This document shows, piece by piece, positions 230-63,922 of a stretch of DNA of 64,000 nucleotides. Position 1 is the stretch's first letter, and every line of letters begins with the position of its first letter. The translations under genes and the position numbers were made by a program. Source of the stretch: Echinostoma caproni (Eukaryota > Platyhelminthes > Trematoda > Plagiorchiida > Echinostomatidae); assembly GCA_900618425.1 (NCBI GenBank), contig UZAN01040103.1, positions 1,739-65,738 of the forward strand, written 5' to 3'. Below the pieces are notes generated by a model. That model ran no database searches. It was given only the letters and a program-made list of their open reading frames with translations, and was not told the origin of the DNA.

Positions 230-244
230 AGGATGCATTCGAAA
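230..244 (+). CDS. Microexon U1-A15 (DAFE)
   Basis: Sequence aggatgcattcgaaa: split codon, D-A-F-E, then first base of the next split codon. Strong acceptor (ggtttctctttcag), donor gtacgt. First exon in the window. Close in peptide to 21056 (DAFN) and 62566 (TAFE). Confidence 0.85.
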
Positions 245-2454
245 GTACGTTGATCGATAAAAACTAAACAGTACTTCGAGTAAACATTTTGCATGATGGC
301 AATTCGGAAGTGGGCCGAATCTAAAGCTAATGAATTAGATGCATTTTTGGTCCGACCACCAGTGCTAAGAATACTATCCAATGAATAGTGCCTTCCATTT
401 TTTTCTACAGTGACTTCCAAAAGAGTATTGTATGCGTGTACATCTCGCTTGATTTTGCCGGTACGAGACTACTCGGGTCCCTCGTTTGACCTCACGTGAC
501 CTGAGTCATATTTGTTCCTGCAGTTTGAACCGTTCGAATCCTTCCCATGAGTCCCTAACGCCTGTGCTCCAGATGTATTGAACCCAAGTTGATAGCGAAT
601 ACAAACTGGATCAAAAAGGATAGTTACCATTGATCACTCAGTAGTAATTGATTTGAATTCAATTCTGTTCGCGTTTATCGAAACTAGTGGGTAGTGTTTG
701 TCCAGCAGCTAAAATTACTGGCATTGTAAACAGCTGCTATTGGCCACGGGAATTCAGTTTCGGGTATTGTATACTCCTTTCACATAATCACGAAAACCTC
801 AGCTCCAAACAGTTTGGTTGCTGATATAATAGGTTTATAACACACTAATTTCATATGTATCTCTCAGATACAACATAGATTGCTCCACATTAACTTCCAT
901 GGAAGAAAGTGTGGACTTTAGTGATCATTCGTTGAGCTCACTATCCCGCATTACCATATCATCTATAAAACTTTACGAACTTAATATTATTCTATGTAAG
1001 TCGTTACTGTACACCTAAAATATTGCCTCAGTGAAATAGTAAAATTAGCTGTGTAATGTGAACAACGACCTTGCTATCTAGAGGCTGAAACGGAACGCAC
1101 TTAATGAATCTAAAAATCGTTCTCTCACTTGTATTACAGAACACATTGAAGGCAAGTTACTGGATGTCCCCTTGACCAAACATTTGTCCAACCTATTCTA
1201 TACATTTTTTTCATTTTGCATAGCCTAAGTCATGGGTCGTTCATAACTACCGGCTGACAAGGAAGGAGAAAAGGAGCGGGCATTTTATGCTTGCAGGACT
1301 AGCTTTTAAACAATTATGAGTTGATAACACAATACAACGTATTATTGGGCATAGTGGAGTTTAATGTATTGGCTAGATATAGAGGCAGAACTAATTAATA
1401 AACCATTCATGGCATTCTTCCCATGGAACTGAGCTCACCGTTCATAAAATTTCATACTCATACACAATGCTCCGTGCATTCACTCGAAACACCCACATAG
1501 GAGGTAGTGGACTCCGGTTCTCTAACTTGGTACAGTTCACCGCTCGTGCATATTTACCTCTGGTCTTCGACATCCGGACCGTTGGCGTACCAACTGACTA
1601 GCATTGTGACTAACCAGAATTCAGCTTTTGGGACAATGGAACTGACTGGCTACTGTTGAAGATGACATCTGAACACATTTAGATTACCGAATCTGCTCAC
1701 TTGGCTTACACAGTGGTGACGTGCTTGATCCATGGTTGATCCACAACGGATACGGAGAACAATGGAGAATACACGAGGCGGGCGATTTGCAAAACTGATA
1801 AGCTCTAATAGATACAAGAAGAGAGTTTGGTGCTTTCTGTGTGACCGTTTTGGTGAATAAACTGAAGATTAAGTCTAAAAGACGGTTGGTTTATGTGGTT
1901 CCAGCAGTTAGAATCCAATCAATCAGAATTGATGATCATCTATGAAGATGCAGTAGTGTGGCAAACTGGCCTTTATTTACAATACTGGAGAGTTCATTTC
2001 ACAATAAAATGATGATCCCAATGATATTAAACCCACTGAAACTAGACCAAAATTTCAGGTCGGTTTTAAAAACAAATTATCTCCCTTTGGTTAGCCTAGG
2101 AGTTGTTATCTCGTAATTGAACAGATTGCAAAACTGAAGGAAGTGAGTGTGCCTAAAGCACCTAATAGCTATTTTGGTCCATATTTTGGTCCGTATTCAG
2201 ACTACCATCATTTTAAATGAGTAGGTACAGATTGGGATGGTAATTTATTCAAGTGCTCACTCAAAAGCACCGACTGATATCTCATGCTACGTTAAGTTGT
2301 TTTAGTAATGCCGGTTGCTAAGCGAAGAATCATGAACAATGTTATTCAAAGGAGATATATGTGCTTGATAAAGTGCTAACGATATATCTTGATGTTTATC
2401 TTTGAGAGGTTCTATTCCTCCTACAAATAAATATTCAACTTTCAATTATTGCAG
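245..2454 (+). other. Introns of U1 (around the exon at 1140)
   Basis: Apart from the 12-nt exon at 1140, nothing coding is recognised. An 18-nt in-phase candidate at 2125-2142 is discussed under rejected items. Confidence 0.6.
1140..1151 (+). CDS. Microexon U1-A12 (HIE), GC donor
   Basis: Sequence aacacattgaag: split K, then H-I-E. Acceptor tctctcacttgtattacag; donor is GC (AG|GCAAGT), the usual context of a functional GC-AG intron. I missed it at first, then found it because the alternation required a 12-nt exon between 244 and 2455. Confidence 0.75.
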
Positions 2455-2469
2455 CATTGGAAAAGAACA
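2455..2469 (+). CDS. Microexon U1-B15 (LEKN)
   Basis: Sequence cattggaaaagaaca: split A, then L-E-K-N. Acceptor ttcaattattgcag, donor gtgagt. A typical L-E-x-x B15 exon. Confidence 0.85.
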
Positions 2470-3951
2470 GTGAGTGAAATTACTAATTCTGGATCTGTTT
2501 TCCCTTTGTGATGCCAAATGAGCACTGGAATGCACTTGATGTTTCTGGAAAGCCCATTGGCTAGTGGATTCGAAATTGCATTGTCCCCAGTTGATCTACT
2601 CAGGCACTTCGTTGTGTCCTACTGCAACCACCTGTTTTTCTTCCCTCCGGAATTAAGTTGATATGTGTGAAGCAGTCTATGGAGTCCATAGTCCGTTGAC
2701 TGAAGTGTCCTAACATATGGTCCTTTGTGGCAAAGCAATTGTATGGCATGTACTGGGACTGGAACTATGAACCCGACAACATTGATGAACTTGGTTGTTT
2801 TCCGTTTCACATGCGGAAAACGAACCACGCATAGCAGCCTGCCAGGGATTCAATCTGACATCAATCTAGAGATATGCAGCATAAAAAGGGGGATTAAATG
2901 GAAGTGAGATATGCATGCAAAGTAATCCAATTCAGCCGACCAGAATGTTGTATATGATTGAAACAAACGGAATATTGTAAATGAAGTTTTAAAGATAGTT
3001 AACCCGGTTACACTTAGTGGACCCCAGTGATAGTCAAACTGAACGATGCAAAGTTATTTTACTGCATTGGTTTCCAAACATGCTTCTTGTTTAGTTTTTT
3101 TCACAAATTATATTTTTCATATTTAAATACTCCCTTTGACCAAAGTTTCACTACCTGTGCACACGCTCATCTTCTGAGGGCATCACATCAGCCCTATTTG
3201 GATATAAAATCACAAATGACACGAAAATCTTCCAGGATGACAGTACTCTTCCAAGTTTTAAATAAAACCTAATGTAATGTGCAAAACGCTAGTGCAAGAA
3301 AAAGGGTTGAGCGCTATTTTGTGACTCGAGGCGTTCGATCACAGATAAGCTTTATTTTCTCATTCATATCACGTGGAATTGTAGGTTAGAAGTATAAAGC
3401 AGCCTTTGCCTTTCTGTGGAGCTTTTATGGGGCCACTGATTGATGTTCGTATATTTGACAATACAATCAGATTATTTTCGAATAACACGAGGTCTTTTGA
3501 AAAACGCTTTGATTCCCCACCGCATACTGGCTCTTTCGAATTGAATTGAACCCCAGCAGAGGTTCCCGTTTTGAAGTTATGTTTTTAATTACATTTTCTC
3601 ATTGTTATGGGTTATGAAGTAAACATTCGGCAGTTGAGAGTTTTATGTGACCACCGGTTCTATGAACCACGGTGGGGGTACGAATCACCTCTTTCTTGTG
3701 ACATGTTTTACCGTATTGATCAAATCAAACAAAGCAACTATGAGCGTGTACCCAATGAAAGTTAAATTTGCTTTCAGTGTCAATTAAAAGGTTTGGATGC
3801 GCAACAAAATTTAAGCGGTCTCTGGTCATGACTTCCTAGGTTTTTCAAGTTACCCATAAAGTGATGATTGCAAATACAACCGCCCATATGTCTTCCTTGA
3901 CAAGAAACGAAAATAATGAGTTTTGCTTTTGATATAAATGAACATTTTTAG

Positions 3952-3963
3952 AAAACGATCATC
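3952..3963 (+). CDS. Microexon U1-B12 (NDH)
   Basis: Sequence aaaacgatcatc: split K, then N-D-H. Acceptor aacatttttag, donor gtaagt. First of three exons within 262 bp. Confidence 0.83.
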
Positions 3964-4088
3964 GTAAGTGTAAAAACTGTATCATTTTCCAAGTCGTTTT
4001 TGGTACAAATCCTTTCTAGCCTCAAACCCTTTACATCTCATCATCATCATCGCCATCATATCGATTACCTCTTGATTTTCCATTTCAG

Positions 4089-4103
4089 TCGCCGAATTCG
4101 AGA
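4089..4103 (+). CDS. Microexon U2-A15 (AEFE)
   Basis: Sequence tcgccgaattcgaga: split L, then A-E-F-E. Acceptor gattttccatttcag, donor gtaagt. The upstream intron is only 125 nt. Confidence 0.88.
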
Positions 4104-4201
4104 GTAAGTTTTGAAGCTGCTCAACGTTCATTAGAGCACAACTCAAAACCATTTGCATGGCACTGACAAAACGTTTCATCACAAACTTCCATTCACTTCA
4201 G

Positions 4202-4213
4202 AATACGAAAACG
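4202..4213 (+). CDS. Microexon U2-A12 (YEN)
   Basis: Sequence aatacgaaaacg: split K, then Y-E-N. Acceptor cttccattcacttcag, donor gtgggt (weaker). The upstream intron is 98 nt, the shortest in the window. Differs from the exon at 29787 by one silent base. Confidence 0.82.
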
Positions 4214-6103: not shown

Positions 6104-6118
6104 AACTGAAAGTGAAAC
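6104..6118 (+). CDS. Microexon U2-B15 (LKVK)
   Basis: Sequence aactgaaagtgaaac: split E, then L-K-V-K. Acceptor ccattttaattttcag, donor gtgagt. Unusual for B15 in being basic and having V at codon 3. The same exon type recurs at 41928 (LEVR). Confidence 0.87.
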
Positions 6119-6488: not shown

Positions 6489-6500
6489 AAAAACAACAAG
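6489..6500 (+). CDS. Microexon U2-B12 (KQQ), GC donor
   Basis: Sequence aaaaacaacaag: split Q, then K-Q-Q. Strong acceptor (tatccacttttgtttcag); donor is GC (AG|GCAAGC). Supported by its length, phase and the expected B12 position. Confidence 0.7.
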
Positions 6501-7338: not shown

Positions 7339-7350
7339 AAATCAGAGTTG
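7339..7350 (+). CDS. Microexon U2-C12 (IRV)
   Basis: Sequence aaatcagagttg: split E, then I-R-V. Acceptor actctgtttgcag, donor gtaagc. An additional 12-nt exon between B12 and the next A15; defines class C12. Confidence 0.82.
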
Positions 7351-7469
7351 GTAAGCTCAAAGCGTTGAACCGGCGATTTTTCGACACTAGCAGTATTATT
7401 ACATCATCTGAATTATGACTATTGCAACGTTTCTTCCCGGATTGCATCAAATCTGTTTTCGCATTTTAG

Positions 7470-7484
7470 CAAACCTCGTTAGTG
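7470..7484 (+). CDS. Microexon U3-A15 (NLVS)
   Basis: Sequence caaacctcgttagtg: split A, then N-L-V-S. Acceptor ctgttttcgcattttag, donor gtaagt. Diverged A15: no acidic residue, V in place of the aromatic. Confidence 0.82.
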
Positions 7485-7818
7485 GTAAGTTTCAACTTTC
7501 TGATGATCTGTCTAGGCCAGCAATTCAGATAGTGCTAGCATATATATATATTCTACTTACTGGTATCACTCAACTATCTATCTCAAAGAATGAACGCTAA
7601 AACATTAGACACTTGTGTAAGAAGAATTTCTTTAAACTTTGATCTTGTTTCCCTTGTATGATAAATGGAGTTATGACACGATGTTCTACAGGCTGCATAT
7701 GTAAACCTCCCCTAAAGATACCTTTGACGGTTATCGTTTGTTTATTTTTCAAATCGAAAATAGCTCCGTTTTTAGCTGTGAGCACTGTGTTCCTTCCGAC
7801 AATATTTGTTTCATTCAG

Positions 7819-7830
7819 AATGTACCACAA
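7819..7830 (+). CDS. Microexon U3-A12 (CTT)
   Basis: Sequence aatgtaccacaa: split E, then C-T-T. Acceptor tttgtttcattcag, donor gtaagt. One of only two cysteines among the 64 exons; the other is in the next exon. Confidence 0.82.
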
Positions 7831-7937
7831 GTAAGTACACTTGCAAACTGAATTTATCCAATCCGTGTTATCAACAAATTTATATGGTTTACTTTGTACC
7901 TGATCCTAATCATCGATACAACCTCATGTTTCTATAG

Positions 7938-7952
7938 ACTGTGACATCAAAA
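7938..7952 (+). CDS. Microexon U3-B15 (CDIK)
   Basis: Sequence actgtgacatcaaaa: split N, then C-D-I-K. Acceptor atgtttctatag, donor gtgagt. Atypical B15 with C in place of L. Upstream intron 107 nt. Confidence 0.8.
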
Positions 7953-9341: not shown

Positions 9342-9353
9342 AGAAAGCAATGC
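9342..9353 (+). CDS. Microexon U3-B12 (KAM)
   Basis: Sequence agaaagcaatgc: split K, then K-A-M. Acceptor aaattccatttcag, donor gtgagt. Confidence 0.85.
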
Positions 9354-9547: not shown

Positions 9548-9562
9548 TGGAGGAATACGACA
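9548..9562 (+). CDS. Microexon U4-A15 (EEYD)
   Basis: Sequence tggaggaatacgaca: split L, then E-E-Y-D. Acceptor tcgctttctcttatag, donor gtaagc. Close to 13903 (EEYE). Upstream intron 194 nt. Confidence 0.86.
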
Positions 9563-10548: not shown

Positions 10549-10560
10549 GTTTCGTTGAAA
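10549..10560 (+). CDS. Microexon U4-A12 (FVE)
   Basis: Sequence gtttcgttgaaa: split S, then F-V-E. Acceptor tattcccatccatatcag, donor gtgagt. Same peptide as the exon at 63635. Confidence 0.84.
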
Positions 10561-12433: not shown

Positions 12434-12448
12434 AGATGAAACAAGAAA
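12434..12448 (+). CDS. Microexon U4-B15 (MKQE)
   Basis: Sequence agatgaaacaagaaa: split K, then M-K-Q-E. Acceptor gtcaaatacatttcag, donor gtgagt. M takes the usual Leu place. Confidence 0.86.
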
Positions 12449-12775: not shown

Positions 12776-12787
12776 AGGGAAACGCTT
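12776..12787 (+). CDS. Microexon U4-B12 (GNA), ends in T
   Basis: Sequence agggaaacgctt: split K, then G-N-A. Acceptor tactctttcttcag, donor gtgagt. One of three exons ending in T: joined to an exon starting AA, AG or GA it would create a stop. The next exon in order starts CC (giving Ser). Confidence 0.86.
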
Positions 12788-13902: not shown

Positions 13903-13917
13903 CCGAAGAATATGAGA
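13903..13917 (+). CDS. Microexon U5-A15 (EEYE)
   Basis: Sequence ccgaagaatatgaga: split S, then E-E-Y-E. Acceptor weaker in pyrimidines (gatgtggttcaaaacag), donor gtaagt. Strong peptide match to 9548 (EEYD). Confidence 0.78.
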
Positions 13918-15445: not shown

Positions 15446-15457
15446 AATTCCTCCAAA
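15446..15457 (+). CDS. Microexon U5-A12 (FLQ)
   Basis: Sequence aattcctccaaa: split K, then F-L-Q. AAG acceptor after a good tract (cttcatttctcgattttcaag), donor gtgagt. Confidence 0.76.
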
Positions 15458-15488
15458 GTGAGTGTGAAAGTTACCCTTAAGAGTAACA

Positions 15489-16449: not shown

Positions 16450-16464
16450 AATTGGAAGGAGAAA
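16450..16464 (+). CDS. Microexon U5-B15 (LEGE)
   Basis: Sequence aattggaaggagaaa: split K, then L-E-G-E. Acceptor tttattcacttcag, donor gtgagt. A model B15 exon. Confidence 0.88.
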
Positions 16465-16614: not shown

Positions 16615-16626
16615 AGAAACATCAGC
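16615..16626 (+). CDS. Microexon U5-B12 (KHQ)
   Basis: Sequence agaaacatcagc: split K, then K-H-Q. Acceptor ttttaatactctatgcag, donor gtgagt. Upstream intron 150 nt. Confidence 0.87.
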
Positions 16627-17001: not shown

Positions 17002-17016
17002 AAGCCAAATGGGAAG
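17002..17016 (+). CDS. Microexon U6-A15 (AKWE)
   Basis: Sequence aagccaaatgggaag: split Q, then A-K-W-E. Acceptor attccctggttttag, donor gtaagg. W replaces the usual F/Y. Confidence 0.84.
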
Positions 17017-17603: not shown

Positions 17604-17615
17604 AATACGTTCTGT
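17604..17615 (+). CDS. Microexon U6-A12 (YVL), ends in T
   Basis: Sequence aatacgttctgt: split E, then Y-V-L. Acceptor acgtttcttgtag, donor gtaagt. Ends in T; the next exon starts TG (giving Leu). Skipping that exon would create TAG. Confidence 0.83.
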
Positions 17616-18827: not shown

Positions 18828-18842
18828 TGAAAGAAAAAGAAA
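18828..18842 (+). CDS. Microexon U6-B15 (KEKE)
   Basis: Sequence tgaaagaaaaagaaa: split L, then K-E-K-E. Acceptor ttcgctccattttgcag, donor gtgagc. The hydrophobic residue is the split Leu rather than the first full codon. Confidence 0.86.
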
Positions 18843-19455: not shown

Positions 19456-19467
19456 AGCAAGAAAAGC
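19456..19467 (+). CDS. Microexon U6-B12 (QEK)
   Basis: Sequence agcaagaaaagc: split K, then Q-E-K. Acceptor ggtccggctttacttcag, donor gtaagt. Confidence 0.86.
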
Positions 19468-21055: not shown

Positions 21056-21070
21056 AAGATGCATTTAACA
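21056..21070 (+). CDS. Microexon U7-A15 (DAFN)
   Basis: Sequence aagatgcatttaaca: split Q, then D-A-F-N. Acceptor tttatttaccattgcag, donor gtgagt. Clear relative of 230 (DAFE). Confidence 0.87.
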
Positions 21071-21731: not shown

Positions 21732-21743
21732 AATTCGTGGCTG
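21732..21743 (+). CDS. Microexon U7 extra 12-nt exon (FVA)
   Basis: Sequence aattcgtggctg: split E, then F-V-A. Acceptor aatcaacacatttgcag, donor gtgagt. It follows another 12-nt exon (21423) inside the A-to-B part of the unit, the only such case. Either it is an insertion, or one of the two is an alternative A12. Confidence 0.82.
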
Positions 21744-24700
21744 GTGAGTTTATGAATCCCTTGAATCCTTTAATTTCCTAACGCATGCGCTTTTGAAAAC
21801 CCAGGCATAGGATGAAGAAACAAAGCCTCAAGGTAACTTGGGTGATGGTGAAATGATGGAGTGAACACACAATCCTTGGGGGTGATGTGATACGGTCATA
21901 CACTGCATCACCACAGTGGCCCAACGGGTCGGAACTTAACGTCTCATATCATAAATGATATTGTCACAGATCATACTACCCAATCCCTAATTACAGAATC
22001 AGGGGAATTGATCAAGACAAAAATGTGTCTGATGATAAATAATTCATAACCAATTGAAATAGTGGTGATCGGCATAATTTAAGTTTGTGGAATTAAACAC
22101 ATGAATGATGAAGTCGGTAACAATTCCTTTGCTCGCAGCAAGTGCATGCGTAGCTATTCTGCAGGCCGATGAGCAAGCAGAGCTGTACAGATATCAAACA
22201 CTCCACAAAGTAGAATGAAGACGCACACATTGTGGGGGAATCGCGTACAAGAACTTTTTCCCAGATGTATCAAGATCAAAAGTCACGTGTGTGACGTGGT
22301 GTAGTTGCAAACCGATCGGTTTGTTTTACGAGATGGGTCGCGAAATCACTCAATGCGGGTGATTGTTTCGTCGCATTGGAGTGTGCTCACATCAGATCTA
22401 ATGATTTTGACCACGTTTGGATTTGATCAGGCAGCTGTATGCAATTTGTTTTGCTGGCTATTCGAGATGGAGTGAGAATAATAATAGTAGCGATAAGGAA
22501 CTTAAGGATCGATCGATATAAGTGAGTAAAGCTAACCGGCGCAGCGAATACATGAGCGAGTGGCTGATTGGAGTCCCTTCGTCCCACGGGTGGTAAATAG
22601 TCAATTAGTCAATTTTATCCCTGATTGGAAATGCCAAATTGAAATTTACTGCATCCAAAATATGGAAACAGCTAATTCCGGTTAACCCGTTAAGATGTTT
22701 TTCTTTTTATGGCGCTTTACTTGTAGCGATCTAAATACAATCCGAAGAAATGAAATAAAATTATTAGATCTCGCGATCTATTTCGGTGTGCCTGTAGCCA
22801 CCTGTATGTTGTCTGAAGTTCGAACAATCGAGTTCAAGATCTGAGTAATATTCAAGCTGCCATTGTAAAGTTGTATTATCGGCTTGCTTGAAGTACAAAT
22901 GAAACCGCATGCCTTGAGCCGTAGGAAACTTATAACTGTAAGGGAAACAACGCAACTTATGGAAAACCGGGCTTGGTAGACCGACTTAGATTAAGTTCAG
23001 CCAAATGTCTAACTTGTCACCCATCCAATACTGAACGTTGTCATCCAAGCCGGCATTTAATCTGCTGGTAAGGTGGGAGCTTATGCGATCTACATCTGCT
23101 TGGATAAGACATAATACTGACGTAACAATAGTGACTCGGAGAAGAAAGGGTACGGAGTACGGAATAAATAAATCTACGAAAATCAGTTGTGAAATAACGA
23201 CAAAGTCAAGACGTATTTCGATTCAATTTTATAAATCAGCTATTTATGTAAACTAAAAAGTGGGAGCACTAGAAAACTCTTACACGTTGTTGGGTTTCAC
23301 CAAATGGAGTAAACCTATTATCTGGGACCTTACAATCACACGAACAAAAGTCTTGGCCGCGTGAATAATGAGAAGTTTGATCGTATAATTAACTTCTTCT
23401 ATACGCGATTTTTCAGGCAACTAGCCTATCTCTAGTTGGTGACATTCTCCGGTTCACTATGCCCCTGTTATGCACGCAACGAACTCAGTCTCACAATTCT
23501 CTACCACCTCCTTGTTATCCATGTATTGCAACTTACTGCACAGTCCTGTTAATTGATGCAATGCAAATGAGAATGCATTCTAGTCTTGGAAAATGAAACC
23601 ATGCGGGATCACAGTGACTTAATAAAGTGGTTAACATATTTTTTTCATTTTAACTTACCTTTTAGACTTGAAGAACAGCAGTAAGTGTCCAAAGCGGAAG
23701 AACTGATCTGATTGATGTTTCATCAGATGAAGCAATTGATAAACAGTGCGAACTTTGAGCGTATTTTTTCTGAAACCAAGAGCACTGACCGGCCTCAATC
23801 GACATGAGTCAAGGCTGTCGGTAGACCACGGAATTTCGTAGTTTGTTAAGACACAAAGATGAAACGAATTAATCGGATTAACAACAGAGTGGCGGACAAG
23901 CTTTTTTCCGATATTCGTATTCATACCAATACAGCTCAATATATAACACTATTTTGGATTAAAATTAACTTGGTAAAATAAAATAACATAAAATCATTGA
24001 TCATTAGAAATGATTTCATCAAGAGACCGAAAATCAGGATCACCACGATCACATATTTGTTTTTCCACTCAGTCGATCATCGAGATTACTCATGATACGG
24101 TGTGTGTGGGGGGGGTTGATCAAGGAAGCTTTAGCGCTTGCACAAATTGTTATTGATCACAGGGGGTTGTGCAGATAAATGCCCAGCATCCGACAGCGAA
24201 CGTGCGTCGATAATCGCGCAAGAACTTCATAAAACGGACATGTCCACAGTGTGATTAGTTTCCGCTAGGCGTGAAACCACTGAACTGGTGAGTGACAATC
24301 GTTCCCGTGTTCAGTCACGCAGGGTGGTGTTCACAAATATGTTTGGACAATCGGGTAACCGTACGTTGTTTCACAAGAACAAGCAAATTAGTATGCACAG
24401 AATGAGACCGCACAACCTGGGACTTTGTCCTTCAGTCGCAAACACATCATTGGCTTGGATATGAACAAAACACGCAGAATGGATGCACAGAAATGCTTAC
24501 CGAAATAAAGTTAAGAGAAAAGAGGCTTTGTGTATATAATAAGGTAAATTTTCAAAATTTTTATAAACAATTATATATAATAATACTACATAAACAATAA
24601 TAATAATAGCAGTAAATTATATCGTTGAACAAGATATCAGTTACAAACAAATACGACAAGTCTAACTGAGCACAGTTTTATCGCTACTGGGACACCACTG

Positions 24701-26172: not shown

Positions 26173-26184
26173 AGGAAAAGAGCC
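26173..26184 (+). CDS. Microexon U7-B12 (EKS)
   Basis: Sequence aggaaaagagcc: split K, then E-K-S. Acceptor acctgttcactttcag, donor gtaagc. Confidence 0.87.
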
Positions 26185-27003: not shown

Positions 27004-27015
27004 AACAGGACAAAC
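27004..27015 (+). CDS. Microexon U7-C12 (QDK)
   Basis: Sequence aacaggacaaac: split Q, then Q-D-K. Very strong acceptor (ttttttttttcttctttacag), donor gtaagc. Sits after B12 like the other C12 exons; the A15 that should follow is not visible. Confidence 0.86.
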
Positions 27016-27793: not shown

Positions 27794-28755
27794 NNNNNNN
27801 NNNNNNNNNNNNNNNNNNNNNNNNNNNNNNNNNNNNNNNNNNNNNNNNNNNNNNNNNNNNNNNNNNNNNNNNNNNNNNNNNNNNNNNNNNNNNNNNNNNN
27901 NNNNNNNNNNNNNNNNNNNNNNNNNNNNNNNNNNNNNNNNNNNNNNNNNNNNNNNNNNNNNNNNNNNNNNNNNNNNNNNNNNNNNNNNNNNNNNNNNNNN
28001 NNNNNNNNNNNNNNNNNNNNNNNNNNNNNNNNNNNNNNNNNNNNNNNNNNNNNNNNNNNNNNNNNNNNNNNNNNNNNNNNNNNNNNNNNNNNNNNNNNNN
28101 NNNNNNNNNNNNNNNNNNNNNNNNNNNNNNNNNNNNNNNNNNNNNNNNNNNNNNNNNNNNNNNNNNNNNNNNNNNNNNNNNNNNNNNNNNNNNNNNNNNN
28201 NNNNNNNNNNNNNNNNNNNNNNNNNNNNNNNNNNNNNNNNNNNNNNNNNNNNNNNNNNNNNNNNNNNNNNNNNNNNNNNNNNNNNNNNNNNNNNNNNNNN
28301 NNNNNNNNNNNNNNNNNNNNNNNNNNNNNNNNNNNNNNNNNNNNNNNNNNNNNNNNNNNNNNNNNNNNNNNNNNNNNNNNNNNNNNNNNNNNNNNNNNNN
28401 NNNNNNNNNNNNNNNNNNNNNNNNNNNNNNNNNNNNNNNNNNNNNNNNNNNNNNNNNNNNNNNNNNNNNNNNNNNNNNNNNNNNNNNNNNNNNNNNNNNN
28501 NNNNNNNNNNNNNNNNNNNNNNNNNNNNNNNNNNNNNNNNNNNNNNNNNNNNNNNNNNNNNNNNNNNNNNNNNNNNNNNNNNNNNNNNNNNNNNNNNNNN
28601 NNNNNNNNNNNNNNNNNNNNNNNNNNNNNNNNNNNNNNNNNNNNNNNNNNNNNNNNNNNNNNNNNNNNNNNNNNNNNNNNNNNNNNNNNNNNNNNNNNNN
28701 NNNNNNNNNNNNNNNNNNNNNNNNNNNNNNNNNNNNNNNNNNNNNNNNNNNNNNN
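27794..28755. other. Assembly gap (962 N), probably hiding a microexon
   Basis: The gap lies between C12 of U7 (27004) and A12 of U8 (29787). The repeat order calls for a 15-nt A15 exon here, and I find none in the sequenced flanks. No repeat of the gap edges was seen, so this gap may be real missing sequence. Confidence 0.7.
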
Positions 28756-29786: not shown

Positions 29787-29798
29787 AATACGAAAATG
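29787..29798 (+). CDS. Microexon U8-A12 (YEN)
   Basis: Sequence aatacgaaaatg: split codon, then Y-E-N. Acceptor cattttctgatcccag, donor gtgagt. Same peptide as 4202, with 11 of 12 bases identical. The A15 expected just before it is missing. Confidence 0.86.
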
Positions 29799-30204: not shown

Positions 30205-30219
30205 AGTTGGAAGAACAAA
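30205..30219 (+). CDS. Microexon U8-B15 (LEEQ)
   Basis: Sequence agttggaagaacaaa: split E, then L-E-E-Q. Acceptor tgttttcacttgcttttcag, donor gtgagt. Confidence 0.89.
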
Positions 30220-31279: not shown

Positions 31280-31291
31280 AAAGCAAACACC
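31280..31291 (+). CDS. Microexon U8-B12 (SKH)
   Basis: Sequence aaagcaaacacc: split K, then S-K-H. Acceptor aatgataccag is pyrimidine-poor next to the AG, but a C/T-rich tract lies about 25 nt upstream. Donor gtaagt. Confidence 0.72.
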
Positions 31292-32065: not shown

Positions 32066-32080
32066 ACGATGAATTCCAAC
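32066..32080 (+). CDS. Microexon U9-A15 (DEFQ)
   Basis: Sequence acgatgaattccaac: split H, then D-E-F-Q. Acceptor attgttgaattttgcag, donor gtacgt. Followed by the longest interval without a confident exon (5.3 kb). Confidence 0.85.
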
Positions 32081-33368: not shown

Positions 33369-35314
33369 CTTGCTATTTTGTAGCCTAGTCGTTATTCAGG
33401 GGATCCTCCATATGTGATATCATGGGATGGAGTTATTTTCAGCTTGCACGTGTAGGGATGCAGCGAAATGACCATCAGGATACATTGTATATACCCATGC
33501 TTCAGACTTCTCTGTTCAGATCATAGGTTGGGAAAGTTCGTCCCAACCCATCACAATTCGTTTCAAGACCGTCGGAGATATTTGTATAACCAGGGTGTTA
33601 CATTTGTTTGAACAATTGAAATTTGTATTTTAGACAAATAACTATGAACGCGGTAACACTCATTTAGGATTTATCAATGCGCAACTGATTTTTTTCACCG
33701 ATTGGTAAGGCAAAAATAATAAGTAATTGTTTATTTTATAAAGCAATATTGTCAGCAATCTGTGATATAGAATATTGAAACGTATCTTACTGTTCAATAT
33801 TACAATCACAGGCTTTATCGACGGTACGTTTATATGATAAGAAGGCACTTATATGTTTCCATCTAATTGACATTGACATTTTACCTTTTGATTTCCGCTT
33901 CTAATTTAAGTTTGTTTCACCATTAGTTCAATAATTTCCCTCTGAACCTCGTCACAGTTACTAGATTCCCCTCTCCTTAGGGGTTCAAGCTTCATGCCGA
34001 CATCTGCGTACTCACCATTCAGCACTGATATTTTGGCCTCTTACTGAAGCGCCGAGGGGGAGAGAGAGACGTTCTCGCGACCTGCATCAGTAGTCACCCG
34101 TCTTACAAATTCACTAACGTTTGCATATTGGTTATTCGTGTACTGGTCTGTGGTTGTGGGTGTAGTCTCCCTCTGTGAACTATCACATGGTGCCTTGTTT
34201 CGTGAACGCGAATGGGTCATGCTTGCGAGCGATCTAAGCTTATTCGAGACTCACAAACGGTTAGTAGGTCGCCGGTATATTTTCCTTCCACTCTGTGTTA
34301 CCGTCAACATAATTCCCACCGCTGAAGTACCGAACAATTATAGTAGTCATTTTCACCATTTGTCTGGAATGGAACATCGCTAGCAAACCAACTGAGGTTT
34401 CAATGGTGTAAAATGAGGTGACAAAATTGACCATAAATAATGTTTTTGTTCCTGTGAAGAATTTTTTCGTGTAAATGGCAAGCGGAATTTACGGTGTGAT
34501 CCCCAGTTGGGTCGATGGATTCGCATTGCTGATGAGACCTAACCAGATCGAAAATGTATAACTGCACAATGCGCTCTAGCTCTAAGTTTATACCTCATTC
34601 ACTCTGTCCATCATTATGTGACGTGAACTATTTGTATGATGATGATGAATTTCATAGAGCACCCTTATTCTTAGATAACATCTCCGTGCTCTTCTCGACC
34701 TCAATGTTGTTGTACCTTCTATTCTGGTTCGCAGTTAAATTGTCCATACCCCATCCCAATGACCTTGGTTTGATCAATATGGACGGTACATTTTGTCCGG
34801 TGAAGGTCTTTGGCTAAAGACCTTATAAAAGCCAGCAAACAGTAGATACTTCATGGTATTCATATAATTGCAAAAACACAGAGCAGACTACACGATGGTT
34901 TTCAGGGCTTCATAATGATGCCAATGAAACACGATCGATATAATATGTGAAACTTTTACCGCAAAATCTCTACATTCAGTTGCTTCCGTTGAGTAAAGTA
35001 TATTTTAGCGTATCCCCGAGCACCGACCTGCATGGCTGAAAAGTGGGGTTATTGAGATTGTCTTAACCACGGTCCTTTAGCATTCAGTTGACAAGCATTG
35101 CATTGCAAAAATGTAAGCGGACCATCTAGATACGCTCTGTTTCATATTCTTGCCATGCGACTGCAGTCCGTATGTGTTCTCAGCTCCAATTTGTGCAGTT
35201 ACTTAAGCTCCTATGCCCGGACTGAGGGCAATTGACAATTCCCAGAGCAACAGAAAAATGATATTTGCTTCTTAATTAACACTATCATATACCTTATGTT
35301 TTATGAGCACGATT

Positions 35315-35347: not shown

Positions 35348-35359
35348 TTTGTGTCCTCC
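35348..35359 (+). CDS. Candidate microexon U9-A12 (CVL)
   Basis: Sequence tttgtgtcctcc: would give split L, then C-V-L. Good acceptor (gcctgtgttttccag), weak donor gtgtgt. It has the right length and phase where an A12 is missing between 32080 and 37359, and resembles YVL of U6. Not included in the 64 counted exons. Confidence 0.4.
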
Positions 35360-37358: not shown

Positions 37359-37373
37359 ATTTGGAAAAGGAAA
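37359..37373 (+). CDS. Microexon U9-B15 (LEKE)
   Basis: Sequence atttggaaaaggaaa: split codon (His if joined to 32080 or to the 35348 candidate), then L-E-K-E. Acceptor tgtttgtgtttcaatcccag, donor gtgagt. Confidence 0.89.
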
Positions 37374-38697: not shown

Positions 38698-38709
38698 AAC
38701 AAAATAAGA
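38698..38709 (+). CDS. Microexon U9-B12 (QNK)
   Basis: Sequence aacaaaataaga: split K, then Q-N-K. Acceptor ttttattttctaatttcaatag, donor gtaagt. Confidence 0.84.
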
Positions 38710-39770: not shown

Positions 39771-39782
39771 AAGTTCTTCAGC
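39771..39782 (+). CDS. Microexon U9-C12 (VLQ)
   Basis: Sequence aagttcttcagc: split K, then V-L-Q. Acceptor gaactaatttattgcag, donor gtaagt. C12 class, between B12 and the next A15. Confidence 0.84.
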
Positions 39783-40100: not shown

Positions 40101-40115
40101 GTGATTCATTCGAGG
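40101..40115 (+). CDS. Microexon U10-A15 (DSFE)
   Basis: Sequence gtgattcattcgagg: split R, then D-S-F-E. Acceptor cacatatcggtttcatag, donor gtaagt. Close to 230 (DAFE). Confidence 0.84.
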
Positions 40116-41792: not shown

Positions 41793-41804
41793 AATACCGG
41801 AAAG
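41793..41804 (+). CDS. Microexon U10-A12 (YRK)
   Basis: Sequence aataccggaaag: split E, then Y-R-K. Acceptor ctttgtgactgtttcag, donor gtgagg. Confidence 0.87.
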
Positions 41805-41927: not shown

Positions 41928-41942
41928 AACTGGAAGTGAGGA
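41928..41942 (+). CDS. Microexon U10-B15 (LEVR)
   Basis: Sequence aactggaagtgagga: split E, then L-E-V-R. Acceptor catttttttacttacag, donor gtgagt. Nearest relative is 6104 (LKVK). Upstream intron 123 nt. Confidence 0.88.
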
Positions 41943-43092: not shown

Positions 43093-43104
43093 GAAGCACA
43101 ATCG
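43093..43104 (+). CDS. Microexon U10-B12 (STI)
   Basis: Sequence gaagcacaatcg: split R, then S-T-I. Acceptor ttcttattcattttcag, donor gtatgt. Confidence 0.83.
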
Positions 43105-43919: not shown

Positions 43920-43931
43920 AGCGTAAATACT
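43920..43931 (+). CDS. Microexon U10-C12 (RKY), ends in T
   Basis: Sequence agcgtaaatact: split E, then R-K-Y. Acceptor aactcccctgtttctag, donor gtaagt. C12 class. Ends in T; the next exon starts CG (giving Ser). Confidence 0.84.
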
Positions 43932-44767: not shown

Positions 44768-44782
44768 CGGAAGAAATCGCCG
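44768..44782 (+). CDS. Microexon U11-A15 (EEIA)
   Basis: Sequence cggaagaaatcgccg: split S, then E-E-I-A. Acceptor cccttcatttgacttgcag, donor gtgagt. Confidence 0.87.
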
Positions 44783-45457: not shown

Positions 45458-45469
45458 TATACACTACTG
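45458..45469 (+). CDS. Microexon U11-A12 (YTT)
   Basis: Sequence tatacactactg: split V, then Y-T-T. Acceptor ctggattttaccttttag, donor gtaagt. Similar to CTT of U3. Confidence 0.85.
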
Positions 45470-45575: not shown

Positions 45576-45590
45576 AAATTCAGGAGAAAA
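45576..45590 (+). CDS. Microexon U11-B15 (IQEK)
   Basis: Sequence aaattcaggagaaaa: split E, then I-Q-E-K. Acceptor tatattgcatccctgcag, donor gtaagc. Upstream intron 106 nt. Confidence 0.86.
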
Positions 45591-46031: not shown

Positions 46032-46043
46032 AACAACACGAAG
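46032..46043 (+). CDS. Microexon U11-B12 (QHE)
   Basis: Sequence aacaacacgaag: split E, then Q-H-E. Acceptor attggcaaattttag, donor gtaagc. Confidence 0.83.
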
Positions 46044-48049
46044 GTAAGCTACAAGAGTTATTTTATACTGGCCTTCATTTGAAATACGAGCAGTATCCAA
46101 AAGATGTGACATGCATACAATCAGGCAACTCAGTATATCATGCTCAATAAAAATCTCATCGATCCCAACACATCCAGGTTATGAAATCTCAGATGCTCTA
46201 AAATACATAGTGTCTATAATCCTAAATTTAACTCGTTTTTCAATCGATTAGACGGAACTAACGTTTATTGGAACAGGTCAGACGGAGAATTGGACCTCAG
46301 GGTCCGAGATATTTCTTTTCCCTTGGCGAGTCTGCTCTGGAAACATTATAATGGAGTGATAACTGTGCCACACTAACACAAAGCGGCAATATTCCCCAAA
46401 GTTTCGCTGAAATGCACAATGAATGCTACCTGAGGATTAGCAGTGTAGCTTAGATAGCAGGGAATAGATTATGGTCAACCAGTGAAACGCACATATAAGT
46501 GAAAAGATAGGCTAGTTTACAATCATCCTTTTTGTTTGAAGAAACAGGTAAGAGAGGGACGTCAAGTCTATGCGGAAAATGTTTTGATCAACCAAAGGGT
46601 ACGATTTTAGCAGTTGGAGCAAATGGGACTTTATTGTGAATGTTATAATGTAAATAACACAGCGATATCGGTAGAGAATTATATTCGCCGACGTTTCGGC
46701 TACCGTGGGTAACCGTTCTCACGGCAGGTTTACAATCAAATGACTCAAGGCTCTGTGTAATTTGATCGTAAACCTGCCGTGAGAAAGGTTACCCACGGTA
46801 ACCGAAACGTCGGTGAATATAATTCTCTACCGATATCGCTATGTTATTAACATTATAACATTCACAACAAACATAACACATGGTGCATCAATTTTTCGAT
46901 ACATCATTTGGTCCTGTTGTATTAAAAATGGGACTTGAAAAATGTGTGCTAAAATTGGACAAAGACAACGGGTAATTAGCATTTAATGAATATGGGAGGA
47001 AGACTTTTCTACATGGAGACAAATGTACAATTATGCTTCAGTTGGAAACGAGTTTGGGGTGGAATAATAACTATTCATCGACGTTGGTAATCGTCTTCAT
47101 TACACATCATCACTGAGCAAATCCGAATTGGTATCAATACACTTTTATGCAATCAGTCCAAATGCTACATTCTTCGGGCCACCAGTGCAAACGTGAAGAC
47201 AATAGCTTGATATAGAGGAAGGAGTGACGTTCGTTCCCTTCATGACCAGAAAATACCGGGGTAAATACAGTACAAAGTGGAGGATACACTAGGTCGTAAA
47301 TTTCCGATTTCAACAATGCACACAGTGAACATTTACCTCGTTTCATTCTAGGTGGAGCTCCTCAGTTAGGTATAATCAGTGAAATCTTTGAGACCTGACC
47401 TAGAGACAACCTTAAGTGGTGGGGTTTATCTTTTCAATGAGCAGATCACATTGGACCTGACAAAAATGGCTCGATTCAATATTCTCCAGAAGTCTTCTTC
47501 ATCGTCAATCATCGAGTTCATCGCACCCACCCACGCATTTTCAATTGACCATCACATTCTTCAACAAAGCCAGACTAAACAGGATACGAGGAACAATAAA
47601 TATTACGCATATTTTTTCTGTTAGTAATTTGTTCACTTTAGTGCTTGCTATATCTGTCCTAGTGACTTTTATCTGAAATATATCAATTGTGATTTAATAT
47701 CCGAAGAAGACAAATCACTGAAAACAAGGCTTTTTCGTTACATTCTATCTTATTCATAGGCTCACTAAACTCTACAGGAGTGAAACATCGCACCAAATCA
47801 ATTGTTCTATGCAAAGTTGATTACATCAACCACATTCAACCTATTAAATCAGATACTCAATCGCGACCAACTGACAGTTACTTATCATAGAAATATTGCT
47901 GGATGTGATGAAAATTTTCAGTCCTTCAAATCAAGGAAAGCATTTCAACGCGTTACTGTTTAGTCAAACCTTACAATGGAGCATGCGAATGGTGCGAAAA
48001 TAGTAGGACCCTACTGACATGATGCATTTACTATTCCGCTCGTTTCCAG
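46044..48049 (+). other. Intron, 2.0 kb, with foldback element
   Basis: Carries the foldback element at 46634-46867. Two further in-phase splice-bounded segments (6 nt at 46542, 18 nt at 47352) do not fit the repeat order. Confidence 0.6.
46634..46867. repeat. Foldback (MITE-like) inverted repeat, 107-bp arms
   Basis: The left arm (46634-46740) and the reverse complement of the right arm (46761-46867) match at about 101 of 107 positions, around a 20-base loop. The outer ends read ttgtgaatgttataatg and its inverse. There is no coding capacity. It looks like a fairly young non-autonomous foldback DNA element inside the intron between 46043 and 48050; no target-site duplication was identified with confidence. 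Confidence 0.85.
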
Positions 48050-48064
48050 AAAAAGAATTTGAAA
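48050..48064 (+). CDS. Microexon U12-A15 (KEFE)
   Basis: Sequence aaaaagaatttgaaa: split E, then K-E-F-E. Acceptor ctattccgctcgtttccag, donor gtgagt. Confidence 0.88.
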
Positions 48065-48223: not shown

Positions 48224-48235
48224 AATTCGAAAAGG
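48224..48235 (+). CDS. Microexon U12-A12 (FEK)
   Basis: Sequence aattcgaaaagg: split K, then F-E-K. Acceptor gtgaatatttgctatag, donor gtaaga. Upstream intron 159 nt. Confidence 0.83.
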
Positions 48236-51821: not shown

Positions 51822-51836
51822 ATACAACAAACGACC
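51822..51836 (+). CDS. Microexon U12-B15 (TTND)
   Basis: Sequence atacaacaaacgacc: split D, then T-T-N-D. Acceptor acttcacttttcttgcacag, donor gtaagc. The most diverged B15: no Leu. Preceded by a 3.6-kb intron. Confidence 0.8.
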
Positions 51837-53640: not shown

Positions 53641-53652
53641 GAGAAAGACTAG
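53641..53652 (+). CDS. Microexon U12-B12 (ERL), GC donor
   Basis: Sequence gagaaagactag: split R, then E-R-L. Acceptor taaataaattacgttacag, donor GC (AG|GCAAGT). Third exon with a GC donor; in the expected B12 place. Confidence 0.65.
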   Translation, partial: EKD

Positions 53653-54664: not shown

Positions 54665-54679
54665 AGACCGAACACAGGC
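54665..54679 (+). CDS. Microexon U13-A15 (TEHR)
   Basis: Sequence agaccgaacacaggc: split E, then T-E-H-R. Acceptor tttgtttcctcatcacag, donor gtaagt. Diverged A15: H in the aromatic place. Confidence 0.85.
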
Positions 54680-55043: not shown

Positions 55044-55055
55044 AACATCTTCAAG
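55044..55055 (+). CDS. Microexon U13-A12 (HLQ)
   Basis: Sequence aacatcttcaag: split Q, then H-L-Q. Acceptor caatcccatcccgtttcag, donor gtgagg. Resembles FLQ of U5. Confidence 0.87.
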
Positions 55056-55838: not shown

Positions 55839-55853
55839 ATTGGGAACAAAAGA
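55839..55853 (+). CDS. Microexon U13-B15 (WEQK)
   Basis: Sequence attgggaacaaaaga: split D, then W-E-Q-K. Acceptor gcgttatttttctgttttag, donor gtaagt. W takes the Leu place. Confidence 0.88.
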
Positions 55854-56089: not shown

Positions 56090-56101
56090 AGAGCGCCAAA
56101 A
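56090..56101 (+). CDS. Microexon U13-B12 (SAK)
   Basis: Sequence agagcgccaaaa: split K, then S-A-K. AAG acceptor (gctttgttcatttaaag), donor gtaagt. Confidence 0.7.
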
Positions 56102-57783: not shown

Positions 57784-57795
57784 CGGACGAGATAG
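57784..57795 (+). CDS. Microexon U13-C12 (DEI)
   Basis: Sequence cggacgagatag: split T, then D-E-I. Acceptor aatatgtaccaattatag, donor gtaagt. C12 class, between B12 and the next A15. Confidence 0.78.
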   Translation, partial: RTR

Positions 57796-58080: not shown

Positions 58081-58100
58081 TCCCGTTTAACAATTTTCAG

Positions 58101-58115
58101 CTGCGGAATACAAAA
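58101..58115 (+). CDS. Microexon U14-A15 (AEYK)
   Basis: Sequence ctgcggaatacaaaa: split A, then A-E-Y-K. Acceptor cccgtttaacaattttcag, donor gtgaga. Confidence 0.86.
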
Positions 58116-59397: not shown

Positions 59398-59409
59398 AAT
59401 ATTTTGACA
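59398..59409 (+). CDS. Microexon U14-A12 (YFD)
   Basis: Sequence aatattttgaca: split K, then Y-F-D. Acceptor atataaattccttttcag, donor gtgagt. Confidence 0.88.
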
Positions 59410-59989: not shown

Positions 59990-60004
59990 ACTTGGAACGA
60001 CAGA
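59990..60004 (+). CDS. Microexon U14-B15 (LERQ)
   Basis: Sequence acttggaacgacaga: split N, then L-E-R-Q. Acceptor cttctataaacaattacag, donor gtgagt. Confidence 0.87.
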
Positions 60005-62425: not shown

Positions 62426-62437
62426 AACAAGAACATC
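62426..62437 (+). CDS. Microexon U14-B12 (QEH)
   Basis: Sequence aacaagaacatc: split K, then Q-E-H. Acceptor atcaaatgcgtcgcgcag (moderate), donor gtgagt. Confidence 0.8.
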
Positions 62438-62565
62438 GTGAGTTTTAATCATTTTATTCACTGATTTTATTCATTGCTAAGAAATTAAGCGATTATTGCC
62501 AGTAAATTGACATCAAGTTCCTTGAACTCAACAAAACTTGTTTTATATCTCCAATCAATTTAAAG

Positions 62566-62580
62566 AAACTGCTTTTGAAC
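62566..62580 (+). CDS. Microexon U15-A15 (TAFE)
   Basis: Sequence aaactgcttttgaac: split Q, then T-A-F-E. AAG acceptor (tatctccaatcaatttaaag), donor gtaagt. Upstream intron 128 nt. Close to DAFE of U1. Confidence 0.78.
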
Positions 62581-63634
62581 GTAAGTTACATCACCGTGTG
62601 TCACTGATACGCAACGTCCGCAAGAAGAACAAATAGAGCTTGCGCTCTTTTCTCACAAATATAAAACAAATCGGTTAGTCATTTGTAGAAAGTTAATGTT
62701 CCCAACTGGTTTTACAAAAACCTTTGCCGAAATGGAAGGACGGAACGGATAAAAAACCGGTTGTGAATTGAGCATCCTTGCAGCTGTTTTATCATGTTTT
62801 TTCGTACCCAGTTGGGACAAAATAATAATCATAACTACCCTAACCATGGTTGCTCACCAATTCTAGATGTTTGCGAAGGAAACACCATATCCGTGGCATA
62901 AAACTCATTTTGATGTAATCAAAAACTTCGATCGTTCTCTGGCCTTATTTTGTCCAAAATACTATCTGATTCATTCACTCAAGTATAAAAGTTGAGTATA
63001 ATAATTTTGCGGATTGGTTACCGTTCATTAACACCTTACACTAAAACCTCAGGGATTAACCACTTACGAAAGCGGTTGGTTTGTAGCAAATCTGATTGTG
63101 CGTTTGATCGGATTCTGATTTCCCTGTTTACAGTTGAACTTTTGTCTTAGTGTTCGTCTCCTTTGGTCATTTGTGTCTACATGCGGAATGTGCAACCCAG
63201 AACTTCGGGTTGCGTCCGTTGTAGGTATCTGAATTTCAAACACTCAGACACCGAAAAAGGGCCATCAATGTATGTTATAGCATGATTGAGAATAAGTCGT
63301 TGGATCTAATCCGACTGTCTAGTCAGCGTTTACATTGCTATTCATTGTCTGCACTTGACCTCATTGACCCATGCTAATCGCATTCCTTGGGGCTTCTGTA
63401 AATGAATCAATGAATGATGTAATCTTACGGCGTTAGGCCACCTCATGTCAACAAAAACACAAGCTATATAAGTTTGATTATTCACTCACCATTTAGTTTA
63501 AGTGTACACAAACAATGTTTTATTACAGCAGGACATAACCATGCTGTGTGAGATCTAAATTTTAGTCAGCCACATATAATCCCAAATATATTCACATGTA
63601 TTCAACTTTCCATTACATTTTTATAAAAACAAAG

Positions 63635-63646
63635 GATTTGTTGAAG
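63635..63646 (+). CDS. Microexon U15-A12 (FVE)
   Basis: Sequence gatttgttgaag: split R, then F-V-E. AAG acceptor (atttttataaaaacaaag), donor gtacgt. Same peptide as 10549. Confidence 0.68.
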
Positions 63647-63907
63647 GTACGTTCTTTTCGTATATTGTGTGTGCCAAGGGCACTGCTGCACTCAGTCCCT
63701 TTCCTCTCAGTCATTTCTGACTCCACGTTCGAAATAGGCACGTTTCTATTGCTGAGAATTATCTTGCTTTACTGGTGAAACACATTCAGCTACATGCACA
63801 ATTTAGACAGTTGGAGTCAAGGCTATCACTATAGTTGTAATTAATACCTAAAAATATTGTTTGGCTAACGCTGGCTGTTTTACGTCCTTATCTTCTGACA
63901 AACACAG

Positions 63908-63922
63908 ATCTGGCTGCTCAAA
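63908..63922 (+). CDS. Microexon U15-B15 (LAAQ)
   Basis: Sequence atctggctgctcaaa: split D, then L-A-A-Q. Acceptor ccttatcttctgacaaacacag, donor gtgagt. Last exon in the window; the gene continues to the right. Confidence 0.84.

Follow-up and report, generated by a model that had tools for sequence, protein, structure and literature searches.

Introduction

The micro-exon genes (MEGs) of schistosomes carry most of their coding sequence in short symmetric exons, with 15-nucleotide (nt) exons prominent among them and introns of about 0.1-5 kb, and their products are described as having an N-terminal signal peptide and as being without relevant homology to other proteins (PMC10526429, PMC5825161, PMC10399815). 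According to one account, the S. mansoni MEGs have 10 to 20 short exons, and the longest of their proteins has 189 residues (PMC10526429); product masses are given as 7-20 kDa, and the isoforms of MEG 2.1 are described as disordered. The aphid megacycle gene is described with more than 100 micro-exons, an N-terminal secretion signal, an internal tandem duplication and a length of about 100 kb; the Melanaphis sacchari gene spreads 118 exons over that length and encodes 2092 residues with 15 repeats. The same account reports megacycle from aphids only and has the micro-exons of aphid bicycle genes begin at codon position 2 (PMC9168663). From these figures we calculate about 53 nt per exon and about 139 residues per repeat for megacycle. 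Here we analyze a 64,000-nt stretch of DNA, hereafter the window, which occupies positions 1739-65738 of a 68,187-bp contig (C1159), together with the 426.5 Mb of its genome in 12,689 contigs. The window is very probably an interior piece of a giant protein-coding gene, probably of a trematode, the coding sequence of which is spliced from exons of 12 and 15 nt.

Results

An in-phase chain of 12- and 15-nt exons

A sequence-only reading of the window had proposed one plus-strand gene of 64 segments of 6, 12 or 15 nt, 849 nt in all. On the plus strand, a plain scan for exons with a C/TAG acceptor of at least 60% pyrimidines and a GTRRG donor returned 18 exons at 12 nt, 24 at 15 nt and 0-4 at each of the remaining lengths from 2 to 39 nt; on the minus strand it returned 2 at 12 nt and 0 at 15 nt. 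Scoring of splice sites with hand-set metazoan weights (the hand-weight scan, threshold 5) gave 23 exons of each length on the plus strand and 3 and 0 on the minus strand, with a mean of 1.63 and a maximum of 6 exons at other lengths from 1 to 300 nt. In both scans only these two lengths, and only on the plus strand of the window, are in excess. The 6-nt exons of the original proposal had to be given up, their counts being those of the background (2 on the plus and 3 on the minus strand at threshold 13, and likewise in the hand-weight scan). An excess of larger exons was also rejected, as lengths of 18-300 nt that are multiples of 3 average 1.61 exons against 1.67 for other lengths (threshold 5).

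A chain finder based on dynamic programming, which takes its splice and content weights from the window and excludes stop-containing exons, assembled 63 plus-strand exons, of which 34 have 12 nt and 29 have 15 nt, into 843 nt or 280 codons in a single phase and without a stop. The chain scores 870, compared with 12 for the reverse complement and at most 7.7 for 10 Markov controls. Because the finder learned from the window and bars stops, we regard the plain scan, the hand-weight scan and the other contigs as the independent tests. In the phase of the sequence-only reading, 0/46 hand-weight exons have an inner stop, whereas 4 and 9 have one in the alternative phases, and 45 of the 46 are contained in the chain (the outsider lies at 35348). 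The junction of 12776 with 15446 spells a stop in the hand-weight set, in which the intervening exon 13903 falls below threshold; this stop is absent from the chain because exon 13903 lies between the two. When the learned splice weights alone were applied to the window's contig, one of 65 exons had a stop in phase (29339, outside the chain) compared with 6 and 13 in the other phases, and 46 of 64 neighbors alternated between 12 and 15 nt (p 0.0003). The evidence strongly supports an in-phase coding chain made up of very short symmetric exons, and the single, stop-free phase first proposed stands.

It is very unlikely that the array is a decayed relic or pseudogene. Its contig is without a known start and the units at 7339-7952 have diverged, as a relic would have it; against this, the splice sites are intact and the hand-weight exons have no inner stop in the coding phase. 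Letter-shuffled coding sequence with the composition of the chain was stop-free in 0/20,000 trials, a weaker argument since the finder excludes stops.

The exons follow a four-exon cycle, designated 15a-12a-15b-12b, whose lengths of 15, 12, 15 and 12 nt sum to 54 nt or 18 residues. This order, which the finder favors, is kept in 55 of the 62 exon successions of the window chain. Five extra 12-nt exons (7339, 27004, 39771, 43920 and 57784) each stand directly after a 12b; four immediately precede a 15a and the fifth precedes a gap of N at 27794-28755, and the status of 7339 as an extra exon depends on 6489, which has a GC donor, being real. GC donors also make the exons at 1140 and 53641, like that at 6489, less certain. 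In the 2.4 kb beyond the window a 12b at 65525 and then a 15a at 65682 (window numbering) continue the order as predicted, bringing the contig to 65 exons. Neither end of the gene is in view in the window, as the sequence-only reading had stated, or in the rest of the 68,187 bp of the contig. The exons of the window, all on its plus strand, are as follows, with 'chain' denoting the chain finder and 'hand' the hand-weight scan.

230..244, +, 15-nt exon, slot 15a (DAFE); chain, hand
1140..1151, +, 12-nt exon, slot 12a (HIE), GC donor, less certain; chain only
2455..2469, +, 15-nt exon, slot 15b (LEKN); chain, hand
3952..3963, +, 12-nt exon, slot 12b (NDH); chain
4089..4103, +, 15-nt exon, slot 15a (AEFE); chain, hand
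4202..4213, +, 12-nt exon, slot 12a (YEN); chain, hand
6104..6118, +, 15-nt exon, slot 15b (LKVK); chain, hand
6489..6500, +, 12-nt exon, slot 12b (KQQ), GC donor, less certain; chain only
7339..7350, +, 12-nt exon (IRV), extra 12 after 12b provided 6489 is real, else 12b itself; chain, hand
7470..7484, +, 15-nt exon, slot 15a (NLVS), diverged content; chain, hand
7819..7830, +, 12-nt exon, slot 12a (CTT), diverged content; chain, hand
7938..7952, +, 15-nt exon, slot 15b (CDIK); chain, hand
9342..9353, +, 12-nt exon, slot 12b (KAM); chain, hand
9548..9562, +, 15-nt exon, slot 15a (EEYD); chain, hand
10549..10560, +, 12-nt exon, slot 12a (FVE); chain, hand
12434..12448, +, 15-nt exon, slot 15b (MKQE); chain
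12776..12787, +, 12-nt exon, slot 12b (GNA); chain, hand
13903..13917, +, 15-nt exon, slot 15a (EEYE), weak acceptor, omission joins neighbors into a stop codon; chain, junction check
15446..15457, +, 12-nt exon, slot 12a (FLQ); chain, hand
16450..16464, +, 15-nt exon, slot 15b (LEGE); chain, hand
16615..16626, +, 12-nt exon, slot 12b (KHQ); chain, hand
17002..17016, +, 15-nt exon, slot 15a (AKWE); chain
17604..17615, +, 12-nt exon, slot 12a (YVL); chain, hand
18828..18842, +, 15-nt exon, slot 15b (KEKE); chain, hand
19456..19467, +, 12-nt exon, slot 12b (QEK); chain, hand
21056..21070, +, 15-nt exon, slot 15a (DAFN); chain, hand
21732..21743, +, 12-nt exon, slot 12a (FVA); chain
23666..23680, +, 15-nt exon, slot 15b (LKNS); chain, hand
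26173..26184, +, 12-nt exon, slot 12b (EKS); chain, hand
27004..27015, +, 12-nt exon, extra 12 after 12b (QDK), following 15a may sit in the N gap 27794-28755; chain, hand
29787..29798, +, 12-nt exon, slot 12a (YEN); chain, hand
30205..30219, +, 15-nt exon, slot 15b (LEEQ); chain, hand
31280..31291, +, 12-nt exon, slot 12b (SKH), weak acceptor; chain
32066..32080, +, 15-nt exon, slot 15a (DEFQ); chain, hand
33812..33823, +, 12-nt exon, slot 12a (FID); chain
37359..37373, +, 15-nt exon, slot 15b (LEKE); chain, hand
38698..38709, +, 12-nt exon, slot 12b (QNK); chain, hand
39771..39782, +, 12-nt exon, extra 12 after 12b (VLQ); chain, hand
40101..40115, +, 15-nt exon, slot 15a (DSFE); chain
41793..41804, +, 12-nt exon, slot 12a (YRK); chain, hand
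41928..41942, +, 15-nt exon, slot 15b (LEVR); chain, hand
43093..43104, +, 12-nt exon, slot 12b (STI); chain, hand
43920..43931, +, 12-nt exon, extra 12 after 12b (RKY); chain, hand
44768..44782, +, 15-nt exon, slot 15a (EEIA); chain, hand
45458..45469, +, 12-nt exon, slot 12a (YTT); chain, hand
45576..45590, +, 15-nt exon, slot 15b (IQEK); chain, hand
46032..46043, +, 12-nt exon, slot 12b (QHE); chain
48050..48064, +, 15-nt exon, slot 15a (KEFE); chain, hand
48224..48235, +, 12-nt exon, slot 12a (FEK); chain
51822..51836, +, 15-nt exon, slot 15b (TTND); chain, hand
53641..53652, +, 12-nt exon, slot 12b (ERL), GC donor, less certain; chain only
54665..54679, +, 15-nt exon, slot 15a (TEHR); chain, hand
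55044..55055, +, 12-nt exon, slot 12a (HLQ); chain, hand
55839..55853, +, 15-nt exon, slot 15b (WEQK); chain, hand
56090..56101, +, 12-nt exon, slot 12b (SAK); chain, hand
57784..57795, +, 12-nt exon, extra 12 after 12b (DEI); chain
58101..58115, +, 15-nt exon, slot 15a (AEYK); chain, hand
59398..59409, +, 12-nt exon, slot 12a (YFD); chain, hand
59990..60004, +, 15-nt exon, slot 15b (LERQ); chain
62426..62437, +, 12-nt exon, slot 12b (QEH); chain
62566..62580, +, 15-nt exon, slot 15a (TAFE); chain
63635..63646, +, 12-nt exon, slot 12a (FVE), weak acceptor; chain
63908..63922, +, 15-nt exon, slot 15b (LAAQ); chain, hand

The introns between these exons measure 0.1-3.6 kb, and the exons contain 45% A compared with 30% in the contig, as might be expected of purine-rich splicing enhancers. 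Tandem DNA repeats were rejected as the origin of the array: a tandem-repeat scan of the window found just one short AT array, and there is no direct-repeat family of at least 40 nt. The window has 0 matches to known RNA families. The intron after exon 46032 holds an inverted repeat (46630-46871; two 118-nt arms, 92% complementary, 6 nt apart) that looks like a small mobile element.

Further chains in the genome

The array has relatives elsewhere in the genome. The pattern YAGNNNTGGAANNNNNNAGTRAGT, from slot 15b, has 29 matches, 21 of them on four contigs, C432 (8), C806 (3), C1114 (4) and C1159 (6), and its reversed controls have 3 and 3. A slot-15a pattern with one mismatch allowed gave 14 matches, 12 of which lie on C432, C994, C1159 and C2493 (controls 1 and 0); a slot-12a pattern gave 23, with 20 on C432, C806, C994, C1114 and C2493 (controls 0 and 6); and a looser 15b pattern gave 52, with 43 on all six of these contigs (controls 9 and 5). 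A lone exon-like match to both 15b patterns lies outside the six, at C1616:69417-69440 (minus strand), and is either a chance match or a further member.

For an out-of-sample test we analyzed positions 1-200 kb of C432 (308.5 kb), of which about 31 kb is N. Splice sites are in excess at 12 and 15 nt only, on the minus strand from 1 to 130 kb and on the plus strand from 130 to 200 kb; none of six stretch-and-strand sets has more than one exon of 6 nt. Splice sites alone identify 81 exons on the minus strand, where 68 of 80 neighbors alternate between 12 and 15 nt, and 63 on the plus strand, where 52 of 62 do so; the maxima in 50,000 permutations were 60 and 48, respectively. Stops in phase occur in 0/81 and 0/63 of these exons, against 11 and 13 (minus) and 11 and 17 (plus) in the other phases. 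The finder, without retraining, recovered 85 exons on the minus strand (78 in the four slots; score 898) and 69 on the plus strand (64 in the four slots; score 661), where the opposite strands score 6.6 and 20.0. Two further gene-strand stretches score 893 and 195, compared with 12.0 and 2.1 on their opposite strands, and eight mobile-element loci of the same genome score at most 0.2. On C1114, 17 exons in about 18 kb follow one another in unbroken order, with nine further exons in a second piece.

The ordered repeat on which the sequence-only reading relied is thus real and is reproduced out of sample on C432 and C1114. That its segments were chance matches picked by eye had in its favor that length and frame were used in choosing them; we consider this negligible, the scans, the chain controls, the out-of-sample chains and the opposite-strand scores having ruled out chance and reader bias.

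The plus-strand chain of C432 reaches 69 exons by 199 kb and pattern matches continue to position 300,007, so that its gene, if single, would span at least 176 kb. Unit-by-unit co-linearity of the three chains, a sign of recent paralogy, was not found (best z 1.6 among 27-33 offsets). C1159, C806, C994, C1114 and C2493 may accordingly hold either separate genes or portions of the C432 pair. Six matches of 72-567 nt, 75-90% alike, between the window's contig and the first 200 kb of C432 are probably dispersed repeats. In the C432 plus chain the introns from 12b to 15a are short, their median being 203 nt (n=14), whereas the three remaining kinds of intron have medians of 475-1294 nt.

Start regions of two members

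The two C432 chains are divergent, with first exons 1.25 kb apart. That of the minus chain, at 122,629, encodes the 20-residue start MLRTVFSSWAPVLGLLIFMN, and that of the plus chain, at 123,881, the start MFRIWFTTWVFGFVLLVDFMT; they were picked from 8 and 10 candidates by mutual likeness, and both end in phase 1 with the donor GTAAGC. TATATAAACCG lies 40-41 nt before the ATG in both. The two promoters thus have similar TATA boxes, and their upstream stretches are also similar, each single match being weak (E 0.8). The second exon of both chains (122,081 and 125,675) is 30 nt long and begins with GA. These back-to-back starts form an inverted duplication, perhaps with a shared promoter.

A third copy of this signature was not found in the whole genome, window included, although a diverged start would be missed. 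The first-exon DNA query matched only itself, and the start pattern had four other matches, seemingly of one repeat (controls 2 and 1); this promoter pattern found, on C625, C7290, C10962 and C12194, a repeat in which TATATAAACCC is followed by a conserved stretch. Since no third copy was found, the remaining contigs, among them that of the window, may carry downstream portions of the C432 gene pair or members with diverged starts.

One gene is the simplest reading of the window chain, short of proof. We consider it unlikely that the window instead holds several shorter micro-exon genes head to tail. Such an arrangement would suit a contig on which neither end is in view; it sits poorly with a cyclic order that continues across the window, even allowing for the finder's preference, and with a C432 start signature that recurs nowhere else.

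The predicted product and the effect of exon skipping

The commonest residues at the positions of the repeat are QEEFEKYIEELEKKKKEQ (46-54 exons per slot). Position 4 is F or Y in 33/46 exons, position 7 Y or F in 38/50, position 8 I, V or L in 36/50, position 11 L or M in 39/53, and position 15 K or R in 39/53. Information at codon positions 1, 2 and 3 is 0.61, 0.58 and 0.37 in the window and 0.50, 0.63 and 0.36 in C432; more information at the first two positions than at the third is what translated sequence would be expected to have. The three joined repeat products contain 2 Pro and 6 Gly among 908 residues, and the hydrophobicity of the C432 plus product peaks at 100 degrees (3.6 residues) with a power of 19.2, against a 99% shuffle level of 9.7. 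We read the product as a probable long charged helix, either a coiled coil or a single helix.

Omission of any single exon keeps the frame, and creates no stop at the new junction in 59/61 cases in the window and in 81/83 and 62/67 on C432, which suggests that the array would tolerate variable splicing nearly everywhere. Within the proposed gene, two modes of use can be distinguished. The array may be a MEG-like generator of secreted protein variants by skipping of symmetric exons, only larger; this is a real possibility, which we place below an even chance. Symmetric exons throughout, the tolerance of single skips, the extra 12-nt exons and the signal-peptide-like first exon of two members are consistent with it, whereas skips of 13903 or 18828 (2/61 in the window) and of 5/67 exons in the C432 plus chain would create a stop, and the S. 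mansoni MEGs are described with far shorter exon series and proteins (PMC10526429).

We give about an even chance to a constitutively spliced secreted rod, such as a gland, tegument, egg or cement protein, in which the tiny exons would be no more than the trace of an old module of four exons, duplicated many times. The regular order, the near absence of Pro and Gly, the helix-like repeat and the lack of direct-repeat families of at least 40 nt, which points to old duplications, agree with such a rod; no result separates it from the variant generator.

Comparison with micro-exon genes, megacycle and collagen

The array shares with the MEGs its short symmetric exons, and by hydropathy the two C432 chains have a putative signal peptide. 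MEGs have about 75-80% of their coding sequence in symmetric exons of 3-36 nt, and in the visible part of the array all 63 window exons are of 12 or 15 nt; the C432 chains are likewise so composed, save for their first two exons and some uncertain ones, with no last exon seen. In contrast to the 10-20 short exons and small proteins of MEGs, there are 63 exons in the window (65 on its contig) and 85 and 69 in the C432 chains. A fixed 12/15 order after exon 2 and a helix-like 18-residue repeat also set the array apart, and the protein searches found no match to a known MEG, no direct MEG comparison having been made. Variants produced by alternative splicing and expression in glands are further characteristics of MEGs. 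The likeness to schistosome MEGs first suggested therefore holds for architecture and not for membership.

The array resembles megacycle in a putative secretion signal, in probable internal duplication and in size, and may come near it in exon number; with the bicycle genes it has in common the exon phase, its internal exons beginning at codon position 2, the offset that is free of stops in the window and in both C432 chains. Set beside the more than 100 exons of megacycle, the C432 minus chain has 85 and the plus chain 69 by 199 kb. The two differ in that megacycle has exons of about 53 nt and a repeat of about 139 residues (about two CYC motifs), whereas the present array has 12- and 15-nt exons and a repeat of 18 residues. 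The genome has one match to PF08034 (TES; 30.4 bits, cut-off 24), which we take to be a family of trematode eggshell synthesis; because of this match and a window GC of 32-40%, an aphid genome is disfavored. A CR1-like element of the genome has best matches at 54% and, among the named sequences of its best 120 matches, a bird, one record labelled as a bacterium and Dicrocoelium dendriticum (46% over 98%); 13 exon matches to the mu GST of S. japonicum have identities of 41-79%. With the PF08034 match, these results indicate a trematode and, by the identities usual within the genus, probably one other than Schistosoma.

A unit of 54 nt or 18 residues is also found in fibrillar collagen genes, where a single 54-nt exon encodes part of a Gly-X-Y triple helix. 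Collagen, too, is a long, rod-shaped secreted protein; here, in contrast, four exons make up the unit and the pattern is alpha-helical. The array would thus resemble both MEGs and megacycle in its working and, by the tests made, would be a member of neither. The suggestion that it lies outside described cases is too strong as regards exon number, given megacycle; our literature searches found no run in which all exons have 12 or 15 nt and their lengths are tied to a repeat of 18 residues.

Discussion

Taken together, our data argue for an interior piece of a giant gene, probably of a trematode, and several results weigh against this reading. Alternation of 12 and 15 nt within the window alone is significant at thresholds 4 (p 0.0003) and 5 (0.02) and fails significance at 6 (0.08) and 7 (0.20). 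The hydrophobicity of the window product peaks near 3.65 residues with a power of 7.4, below the shuffle level of 10.5, and no peak exceeds the shuffles; the C432 minus product has its highest peak at 4.5 residues (12.4, shuffle level 8.9) and reaches 8.8 at 3.62. The window's own contig has no start, and the first exons on C432 are signal-peptide-like as judged by hydropathy only. No homologous protein was found among 1,506 word-sharing candidates at E 0.01 or among the 7,998 candidates listed at E 0.001, and the window's joined product matched 0 Pfam families and 0 chains of the PDB sequences at E 0.1, on which ground a known coiled-coil family was rejected. The missing homologue is weak evidence, because the protein search reaches only proteins that share five-residue words and because gene prediction easily misses such genes.

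We propose that the coding sequence of the giant gene would be spliced from 12- and 15-nt exons that are all bounded by phase-1 introns and so begin at codon position 2, four of which would supply one 18-residue repeat, or five turns of an alpha-helix. The array most likely grew by repeated duplication of a four-exon module, since four successive exons encode one repeat, and these duplications would be old because no direct-repeat family of at least 40 nt is left in the window. If the array is transcribed and each exon included, as we infer, the product would most likely be a long, nearly Pro-free, highly charged amphipathic helix forming a rod, either as a coiled coil or as a single helix. 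Secretion is most likely for the family, because at the start of both C432 chains a TATA box is followed by a signal-peptide-like first exon and then by an exon of 30 nt.

Skipping or adding exons would be expected to vary the length of this rod in steps of 4, 5, 9 or 18 residues. The standard cycle gives 5+4+5+4 = 18 residues, which would make five turns, and an extra 12-nt exon gives 22 residues, which would make six (3.67 per turn). We raise tentatively, as a doubtful extension of the proposal, the idea that exon lengths are locked to helix geometry. If this is true and the extra exons are optional, splicing would set both length and register of a secreted helical rod in steps of about one helical turn, and the genes may span several contigs and contain hundreds of exons.

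At 12-15 nt, these exons come close to the lower limit allowed by exon-definition models, and 63 of them in one window must each be recognized. A fixed order of exon lengths that equals a protein repeat is a natural case for the co-evolution of splice sites, exon length and protein geometry, and the array makes both the splicing of tiny exons and the link between exon and protein shape directly testable. It also suggests that whole families of secreted flatworm proteins would escape standard gene finders.

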